Notes under the pieces: model-generated
Databases searched by the model: none
Seen by the model: the letters and a program-made list of their open reading frames with translations, nothing else
Told to the model about the DNA's origin: nothing
Made by a program: the position numbers and the translations under genes
Shown: in pieces, positions 61,607 through 64,000 of the stretch
Layout of the letters: each line of letters begins with the position of its first letter
How positions within the stretch are numbered: position 1 is the stretch's first letter
Assembly: GCF_004343305.1 (NCBI RefSeq)
Contig: NZ_SMAF01000003.1
Location: 1-64,000 of the forward strand
Direction of reading: 5' to 3'
Source: Pseudofulvimonas gallinarii
GTDB lineage: Bacteria > Pseudomonadota > Gammaproteobacteria > Xanthomonadales > UBA2363
Length of the DNA stretch: 64,000 nt

Positions 61607-62263
61607 TCAGCGTTTCCGCCGTGCAAACAGGCGGGCCAGGACGCGCGCGCGCTGGAAACGCGGTTCGCTTCCGGCACGAAGGCGGGCAAGGTTGGCGCGG
61701 TGCTTCCAGACCAGCAGTGCCGCGGCGGCGACGGCCACCAGAACCAGCGCCGCGTCGGCGCGCAGCGGCGTCAGCAGCAGGATGATCGGGAACGACACCG
61801 CGGCCATCACCGAGGCCAGGCCAACGTAGCCGGTGCTGGCCAGCACCAGCAGCCAGACCGCCAGCATGGCCAGCGCCAGCCAGGCGGACAGGGCCAGCAC
61901 GCCCCCGAACAGCGTGCCGGCGGCCTTGCCGCCGCGGAATCCATGCCAGACCGGATAGCAGTGTCCCACTGCGGCCGCCAGGGCGCAGGCCAGCCCGACG
62001 GACGCCTGCGACATCGCCACAGGCGTCTGGCCGAAGAGATCGAGGCGGGCGATCACCAGCGCGGCCAGCGCGCCCTTGCCGACATCGATGGCCGCGACCA
62101 TCAGCGCGAATGTCCAGCCTTGGGTCCGGAATGCATTGGTCGCACCGGCATTGCCGCTGCCGGCCTTGCGGATGTCGATGCCGCGCAGGTGACCGAGGAC
62201 GAGGCTGCCGACGATGCTGCCCACCAGATAGGCGAGCAGCAGCTTGATCGCGAGCGCGATCAA
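61607..62263 (-). CDS. plsY: Glycerol-3-phosphate acyltransferase PlsY
   Basis: This polytopic inner-membrane enzyme acylates glycerol-3-phosphate using acyl-phosphate. Active-site loops are clear: GSGNAGATNAFRTQG and VGHCYPVWHGFRGGKAAGT, plus the start AYLVGSIVGSLVLG. The start is TTG at 62263, overlapping the stop of the DAK2-DegV gene (TTGA). The next upstream ATG would overlap that gene by 100 bases and add a non-family Arg-rich segment. It has 218 aa and about five to seven membrane segments. Confidence 0.9.
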   Translation of the reverse strand: MIALAIKLLLAYLVGSIVGSLVLGHLRGIDIRKAGSGNAGATNAFRTQGWTFALMVAAIDVGKGALAALVIARLDLFGQTPVAMSQASVGLACALAAAVGHCYPVWHGFRGGKAAGTLFGGVLALSAWLALAMLAVWLLVLASTGYVGLASVMAAVSFPIILLLTPLRADAALVLVAVAAAALLVWKHRANLARLRAGSEPRFQRARVLARLFARRKR

Positions 62264-64000
62264 GGCTGCACCGGATCGTCGCTGGCGGAGTCCGGCAGCC
62301 GCTGCAGGCCGACGACGACGGTGCCGGGGCCGGCATGGCAGCCAAGCGCCGGTCCGCACTCCGTCACCCAGATCTTGTCGAGTCCCTTCATGCGTTCACG
62401 CAGCGCCCCCGCCAGGGCGGCCGCCTCGTCACCGGCGTCGCAATGGGCGACGATCGCGCGCCATCGCCGGTCCTTGCCCTGCCGTCGCAGGACGCGGTCC
62501 GCAAACCGTTCCATCAGCGGGCCGCGCGCGCGCAGTGCGCCGAACGGCTTGATCCTGCCGTCCCGAATGGTGATCAGCATGCGCAGGCGCAGCAGGTCGG
62601 CCAGCCGTTTCAGCAGCGGCGGCACGCGACCGCCGGCAACGCCGTAGCGCAGATCGGCGATCAGCGCATAGACGCGCGTGTTCTCCATCGCCTGCGCCGC
62701 GGCGGCGCGCACCTGCGCGACACCGCCACCGGCCGCCGCACATTCGGCGGCGCTCAGTGTCACCAGCGCCTGGCCACAGGACGCGGACAGCGTATCGATG
62801 ACATGGATGTGATCGGGGTCGGTATCGCGGGCGGCACTGACGGCGGCCTGCCAGGTGCCGGAGACCCGGCTGGATACGTCGAGGGCGACGACGTCGTCGC
62901 AATGGCCCCGTGTCAGTTCGAACGAACGGCGGAAATCGCCCGCCGGCGGCTGCGACGTGCGCAACGGCGTCGGATCCTGGCGCAGGCGGGCGTACAGCTC
63001 GTCCGCCGACAGCGTGATGCGGTCCAGGAAATCCTCTTCACCGGCAACGACGCGCACCGGGATCACGCCGATGCCGAGTCGTTCGACCTCGCTGGCGGGC
63101 AGGTCGGCGGCGGAGTCACAGACGACGCGCACCGGCTGGAAGGCCGAGGCGCGCAGGCGTGCCTGGGCGTGCATGTCGTCCGCCTTGCGCTGGGCGACTT
63201 CGCCGAAAGCCGCCAGCGCCTCGAACAGCCGGTTCGGCGAATCGATATGGGCATGGACGCGGATGCGTTCGCGACCACCGGCGACGACCAGCGAATCCAG
63301 CGGCAGCGCATCCAGCGCGGCGCGGATGTGCGTGGGGTCCAGACCGGTTCCGGTCACCACGCACTCGCTGCAGTAGCGGTAGCGACTGTCGGTTTCGACC
63401 GATTCCAGGTGCACGTCGGTGTCGTTGACCGTCGTGACCGGGCGCAGCCCTGGCGGAAGGCGCAGCGCCCGCCGGCCGTTTTCCAGCCATTCCTCGACGC
63501 CTTCCAGGAAATCCACGAAGCCGGCGGCGCCGGCATCGACCACGCCCGCGGCGCGGAGGACCGGCAACTGGCGGGGCGTGTCCGCCAGCGACTGCCGGGC
63601 ACGATGCAGTGCCTGGGTGAATTGCGCGCGCAAGTCGGCGACGCCCCGCTCGGCCTGGCGCCGCAGCTCGGCCGCGAAATCGCCGATCACGCTGAGGATC
63701 GTGCCTTCCCTCGGCTGTGCCAGCGCGCCTCGCGCCGAGCGCGCCGCCGCTTCGGTGGCGTTCGCCAGCGTCGAGGCATCGGCGACGCTGCGGCGACCCA
63801 GCGCGTCGGCGAGACCCTGGAAGAACTGCGCGAAGATGGCGCCTGAGTTGCCGCGCGCGCCATCGACCGCGTCGCGCGCCACGCGCGCCAGCAGGTCACC
63901 GACATCCTTGCCGCGACCGCGCCGCGCACTGCCGAGCACGGCATTGAGCGTGAACGCCAGGTTGGTGCCGGTATCGCCATCAGGCACCGGGAATACGTTG
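62260..64000 (-). CDS. DAK2 (DhaL-like)-DegV fusion, putative fatty-acid kinase (partial)
   Basis: The gene runs off the window; about 580 residues are visible. The N-terminal part is a DhaL/FakA-like nucleotide-binding domain with NVFPVPDGDTGTN and GARGNSGAIFAQFFQG. The C-terminal part (last about 280 aa) is a DegV/FakB-like fatty-acid-binding domain: VVCDSAADLP, TSQPPAGDF and LDVSSRVSGTW. In Firmicutes these are separate proteins, FakA and FakB, that make acyl-phosphate. Here they are one chain, overlapping plsY, whose product uses acyl-phosphate. A fatty-acid kinase role is therefore inferred. The start codon is outside the window. Confidence 0.85.
   Translation of the reverse strand, partial: NVFPVPDGDTGTNLAFTLNAVLGSARRGRGKDVGDLLARVARDAVDGARGNSGAIFAQFFQGLADALGRRSVADASTLANATEAAARSARGALAQPREGTILSVIGDFAAELRRQAERGVADLRAQFTQALHRARQSLADTPRQLPVLRAAGVVDAGAAGFVDFLEGVEEWLENGRRALRLPPGLRPVTTVNDTDVHLESVETDSRYRYCSECVVTGTGLDPTHIRAALDALPLDSLVVAGGRERIRVHAHIDSPNRLFEALAAFGEVAQRKADDMHAQARLRASAFQPVRVVCDSAADLPASEVERLGIGVIPVRVVAGEEDFLDRITLSADELYARLRQDPTPLRTSQPPAGDFRRSFELTRGHCDDVVALDVSSRVSGTWQAAVSAARDTDPDHIHVIDTLSASCGQALVTLSAAECAAAGGGVAQVRAAAAQAMENTRVYALIADLRYGVAGGRVPPLLKRLADLLRLRMLITIRDGRIKPFGALRARGPLMERFADRVLRRQGKDRRWRAIVAHCDAGDEAAALAGALRERMKGLDKIWVTECGPALGCHAGPGTVVVGLQRLPDSASDDPVQP

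Follow-up and report, generated by a model that had tools for sequence, protein, structure and literature searches.

What supplies acyl-phosphate to the PlsY of Pseudofulvimonas gallinarii, whose plsY gene overlaps the frame of a putative one-chain fatty-acid kinase? In the window, the whole stretch of 64,000 nucleotides analysed here, the kinase frame occupies positions 62260-64000 of the minus strand, exactly where the sequence-only reading had placed it, and is open at the window edge. On the contig beyond the window, the frame reaches an ATG start at 64122 and encodes 620 aa, with 122 of its bases lying outside the window, while an alternative upstream GTG start would extend the protein to 637 aa. 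The TGA stop of the kinase frame (62260-62262) and the TTG start of plsY (62261-62263) form a four-base TTGA overlap, noticed at the first reading and present in the sequence; the TTG start is further backed by relatives whose -4 junctions also carry a start codon, be it ATG, GTG or TTG. PlsY scored 157.9 against TIGR00023, above the cut-off of 137.2, and its translation carries the GSGNxGxTN and GGK motifs. On the same contig, hemF lies divergently upstream of the kinase frame, and proB and proA come after plsY. The features are as follows.

Past the window edge, on the contig to 64122, minus strand: first 41 codons of the putative kinase gene (open reading frame and translation).
62260..64000, minus strand: predicted one-chain fatty-acid kinase gene (FakA_N-FakA_L-FakB), 3' 579 codons (open reading frame and translation; Pfam; AlphaFold).
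63493..63999, minus strand: FakA_N/Dak2 (DhaL-type) ATP-binding domain (Pfam 120.6 bits; invariant nucleotide/Mg ligands).
63961-63999, minus strand: NVFPVPDGDTGTN, Mg/ATP loop at the window start of FakA_N (sequence).
63157..63381, minus strand: FakA_L/FakA-like middle domain (PF21645, above cut-off).
63370-63372, minus strand: FakA_L Cys, equivalent of catalytic C240 (invariant C251).
63253-63255 and 63247-63249, minus strand: FakA_L HxH, equivalents of H282 and H284 (invariant H290, H292).
62308..63132, minus strand: FakB/DegV fatty-acid-binding domain, at the place of the FakA_C docking domain (PF02645 190 bits; TIGR00762).
62260..62263, minus strand: TTGA overlap of kinase stop and plsY start (sequence; -4 junction in 31 of 66 related loci).
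61607..62263, minus strand: plsY, acyl-phosphate:glycerol-3-phosphate acyltransferase, 218 aa (PF02660 155.4 bits; TIGR00023).

Pfam placed Dak2 (120.6 bits), FakA-like_M (48.2) and DegV (190) on the one chain. The DhaL/FakA-like and DegV/FakB-like domains that had been described as fused are thus both present, and the third, a FakA middle domain between them, had been overlooked. S. aureus FakA is built from FakA_N, which binds ATP, FakA_L, which mediates dimerisation and holds the catalytic C240, H282 and H284, and FakA_C, a FakB-like domain that lacks a lipid tunnel and docks FakB (PMC9136124). With residue roles taken from the same work (PMC9136124), S. aureus N32, D38, D40, T41, N82 and D185 correspond to N42, D48, D50, T51, N92 and D196 of the 620-aa protein, and C240, H282 and H284 to C251, H290 and H292. 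These six nucleotide/Mg ligands and the Cys-His-His set were invariant in 18 sequences, the others of which are 39-69% identical to this protein, and again in 41 independently fetched sequences. The FakA_N domain also carries a GARGNSG loop and VVDAG, and the DegV part displays TSQP, SGT, GGR and HxGPG signatures, with key positions invariant among the 18 sequences. A loss of the ATP-site residues, named beforehand as fatal to the kinase proposal, was looked for; all ligands were found in place and invariant, the predicted folds are confident, and the kinase proposal was not refuted.

The C-terminal domain was compared with both FakB and FakA_C. It scored 215.9 against TIGR00762 (cut-off 99.7), and positions 321-597 of the fusion-family profile aligned with residues 2-278 of FakB1, that is, with its whole length. 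The Pfam FakA_C model (PF13684) gave no match in the window protein, and the family profile gave no significant match to the FakA_C region of S. suis FakA. An ordinary FakA with a merely DegV-like C-terminus was therefore rejected, given the DegV score of 190 bits, the lack of a FakA_C score, the full FakB length and the S. suis comparison. PF13684 was matched weakly by 12 of the 41 relatives, all of which have DegV, as the established relatedness between FakA_C and FakB would lead one to expect. A search of the P. gallinarii genome recovered a single DegV, the one inside the fusion.

Structure prediction agreed with the domain assignment. AlphaFold modelled the window portion of the fusion with a pLDDT of 89.4 and a pTM of 0.87, and the full-length relative L073 (61% identical) with a pLDDT of 90.9 and a pTM of 0.86. 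Foldseek matched the S. suis FakA-FakB2 complex and fatty-acid-bound DegV and FakB structures (TMt about 0.84-0.89), with the DegV domain aligning to FakB1 at a TMt of 0.85-0.88 and the FakA_N of L073 superposing on AMP-PNP- and ADP-bound S. aureus FakA_N at 1.0 A (TMt 0.93-0.94). The whole-chain TM of the model to FakA was low (0.3), so these matches are per domain and do not establish a FakA-like domain arrangement.

Gene order was then compared across related loci. In the host's order, nearly every locus examined has plsY 3' of the fusion and in the same orientation, and at 45 of 66 loci a plsY start codon stands at a -4 (31), -8 (12) or -1 (2) junction. Beyond the genus, the fusion no longer has proB, proA and hemF beside it; across families plsY alone is kept, which ruled out an adjacency arising by chance or through a proBA/hemF operon. 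Linkage is not a universal rule: two genomes (G010, G012) retain both genes unlinked, and the fusion of Woeseiaceae and similar MAGs has gspB upstream of it, with plsY elsewhere and usually accompanied by PlsX. PlsY was located elsewhere in the genome in 35 of the 36 genomes tested, 34 of which had been picked for their non-adjacent loci. Adjacency, whose frequency the sequence-only reading had wished to see counted, holds at nearly all loci of the order and fails in Woeseiaceae, other lineages, G010 and G012. At six Woeseiaceae-type MAG loci (L097, L101, L112, L121, L126, L146), the fusion is found just downstream of the type II secretion gene gspB, and a gene of about 550 aa, ATPase-like, often precedes at loci of this type.

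The distribution of the fusion was examined in 200 genomes of the order, with a stricter subset of at least 95% completeness; genome counts are not counts of independent events. The fusion forms a single open reading frame in 98 of the 200 genomes, some assembled in one or two contigs, and its carriers include Arenimonas, Dokdonella, Tahibacter, Pseudoxanthomonas, Lysobacter daejeonensis and Wenzhouxiangella besides many MAGs. A chance fusion is excluded by this number, by the one- and two-contig genomes and by the named isolates. PlsB was detected in 197 of the 200 genomes, PlsY in 100 and PlsX in 93. The fusion and PlsY occur together in 94 genomes, the fusion alone in 4, PlsY alone in 6 and neither in 96 (59, 1, 1 and 78, respectively, in the stricter subset), and in all 4 genomes with the fusion alone a contig ends inside the fusion. 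The association of PlsX with PlsY is much weaker, with 55 genomes holding both, 38 PlsX alone, 45 PlsY alone and 62 neither. A spread throughout Pseudomonadota was rejected, as FakA-like_M appeared in 2 of 398 Pseudomonadota genomes, both of this order, yet the scan by name reaches wider MAG lineages. Two contigs labelled Candidatus Neomarinimicrobiota (L135, L151) also have the fusion, about 35% identical, with plsY behind it, reflecting horizontal transfer, a truly wider range or a binning error. At another locus (L072, G145:C9) the fusion is frame-broken and the downstream plsY is intact.

The search for PlsX (PF02504) found none in the P. gallinarii genome, which is 100% complete and encodes PlsB, or in two congeners (G000, G002 and G014 together), while the same search was positive in E. 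coli and recovered PlsX in other families of the order. At the rpmF-plsX-fabH site, where G004 and G009 carry plsX, the P. gallinarii genome has rpmF followed by fabH across a 173-base gap. In a tree of the fusion, most PlsX-lacking members fell in one clade (f1, f2, f3, f5, f11, f12; support 0.96), so the loss in this main clade may have been a single event; a second, separate PlsX-lacking pair lies in f9 and probably corresponds to G020 and G118, the two members of f9 that lack PlsX and stand apart in the tree. Every genome at least 95% complete that has PlsY also has PlsX, the fusion or both; in the whole set, two MAGs, 94% and 86% complete, may depart from this rule, and the plsY match of the latter runs up to a contig end. 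Such a pattern is expected if PlsY needs one source of acyl-phosphate and either one suffices. Two PlsX-containing genomes (G069, G160) hold C-terminal remnants of the fusion just upstream of plsY (L181:1343-1535, L183:1185-1253), as would be expected if PlsX makes the fusion dispensable. Family f8 (e.g. G008, G027, G035) comprises 31 genomes that have PlsX and lack both PlsY and the fusion, and this orphan PlsX offers a natural setting for roles of PlsX and acyl-phosphate beyond PlsY. One complete genome (G019:C1:535350-535871 and 2288920-2289889) has PlsY, no PlsB and no fusion, and its PlsX is broken into several pieces and contains an internal stop.

Since the P. gallinarii genome has no PlsX, the putative kinase is the only recognised source of substrate for its PlsY. 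From these observations we infer the kinase activity, its substrate, the flux to PlsY and the physiological role, and we consider it probable that the one-chain kinase supplies acyl-phosphate to PlsY without PlsX, in a salvage route beside PlsB. In the proposed pathway, a free fatty acid would pass out of the membrane into the DegV/FakB domain, the DhaL-type domain would bind ATP-Mg, and the middle domain would contribute the Cys-His-His catalytic residues that lead to acyl-phosphate. The FakB domain in the FakA_C place may act as a permanent tether in lieu of the docking step of the two-protein Firmicute enzyme, serving either its own chain or a dimer partner. PlsY, translated from the overlapping frame, would then acylate glycerol-3-phosphate with the acyl-phosphate to give LPA, with PlsB handling newly made acyl-ACP and acyl-CoA. 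The genome also encodes FadD, which gives free fatty acids a CoA route as well, so that salvage or recycling is a likelier role for the module than being the sole outlet for fatty acids. An exosortase A system-type acyl-CoA ligase is likewise encoded in this genome (G000:C20:48173-49267, L176; best match TIGR03098, below its cut-off). The suggestion, made from the locus, that free fatty acids enter phospholipid by a coupled path is well supported by the genomics, namely by co-occurrence, by adjacency with overlapping or near-overlapping frames, and by complete residues and folds, and its case is stronger than had been appreciated, as PlsX is missing from both the genome and its usual site; the adjacency on which it leaned is not universal. 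A broader view, in which PlsY has become independent of PlsX across a wide gammaproteobacterial clade and the co-translated kinase hands over acyl-phosphate at the membrane as a channelled salvage line apart from PlsB, is conceivable, and we put it forward tentatively as a doubtful extension.

The fusion might instead phosphorylate a different ligand, for instance a signalling fatty acid, one with a branch or a hydroxyl group, or a molecule that is no lipid; we judge this unlikely. The protein scored 139.5 of the 975 bits set as the cut-off of the NCBIfam FakA equivalog (NF038248) and 100.7 of the 350 bits of the FakB1 equivalog (NF038249); by these profiles it is not one of the S. aureus-type two-protein FakA/FakB1 equivalogs, and its substrate could accordingly differ. 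Iso-branched fatty acids and DSF-type signals, well known from bacteria related to the host, would provide such ligands, and the DegV domain is just 18-28% identical to solved DegV/FakB structures. Known FakBs, however, already vary in specificity, the nearest folds are fatty-acid-bound DegV proteins, and the linkage and co-occurrence with PlsY suggest an acyl-phosphate that PlsY can use.

We think it improbable that the fusion makes acyl-phosphate mainly as a signal, for example one restraining LPS synthesis, with PlsY chiefly removing it. In favour of such a role, the presence of PlsB in 197 of 200 genomes leaves PlsY unneeded for bulk synthesis, E. coli PlsX and PlsY have roles beyond lipid synthesis (PMC11633183), and, according to an E. 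coli preprint, acyl-phosphate may inhibit LpxC (PMC13060810). Outside E. coli, though, no such target is known, and a kinase of free fatty acids, unlike PlsX, would carry no information on acyl-ACP supply. A degenerate or regulatory relic without kinase activity, to which the broken frame in G145 and the bare remnants in G069 and G160 might point, is very improbable, given that the catalytic residues are kept in proteins only about 40% identical, that the frame is intact in nearly all members and that the models are intact. Hardly credible at all is a dihydroxyacetone-kinase relative with an unrelated DegV partner, set beside plsY by accident: the Dak2 domain name and a weak match to DhaL (TIGR02365) recall such an enzyme, but the 26.6 bits of that match against a cut-off of 138.3 rule out this identity, the protein has no DhaK domain and carries FakA-like_M with its Cys-His-His, the PlsY neighbourhood and co-occurrence persist across many families, and proB, proA and hemF drop out of the neighbourhood beyond the genus.

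Fak has been regarded as a Gram-positive strategy, with Gram-negative bacteria activating free fatty acids as thioesters (PMC10146087, PMC12594616, PMC11633183). The fusion family, with its predicted kinase function, stands as a counter-example across a whole gammaproteobacterial order, in which the natural loss of plsX leaves PlsY tied to the kinase. Our literature searches returned nothing relevant on a DAK2-DegV fusion in xanthomonads, with subscription papers outside their scope and an earlier report therefore possible; the parts are known, whereas the one-chain form, the plsY operon in a Gram-negative clade and the persistence after plsX loss were unreported in the literature searched. 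A one-chain kinase would ease the study of the FakA-FakB hand-over and of the suspected escort of acyl-phosphate to PlsY, and the fusion also bears on the origin of FakA_C, a FakB relative in the same place.

Compared with known systems, the fusion shares with Firmicute FakA/FakB (S. aureus, B. subtilis YloV/DegV, S. suis 7w7h) the FakA_N and FakA_L domains, complete in their named catalytic residues, the DegV/FakB fatty-acid-binding domain and the expectation of feeding PlsY. It differs in being one chain in which FakB itself replaces the FakA_C docking domain, in being gammaproteobacterial, in its frame overlap with plsY and in the absence of PlsX from the P. gallinarii genome. The PlsX/PlsY system likewise provides an acyl-phosphate donor for PlsY, but it draws on acyl-ACP, whereas the predicted source here is free fatty acid and ATP, with plsX lost. 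The FadD/PlsB route of Gram-negatives, both members of which are present here, also brings free fatty acids into phospholipid, running on acyl-CoA where the fusion route is predicted to run on acyl-phosphate. The nearest related arrangement is the PlsY-DegV fusion noted in Anaerolineae (Bellilinea, Thermanaerothrix; PMC5700162), which likewise gives a DegV/FakB-type carrier a physical link with the PlsY step; in that protein PlsY itself is the fusion partner of DegV and no kinase domain was described, whereas in the present one the partner is the kinase, with PlsY separate and co-encoded.
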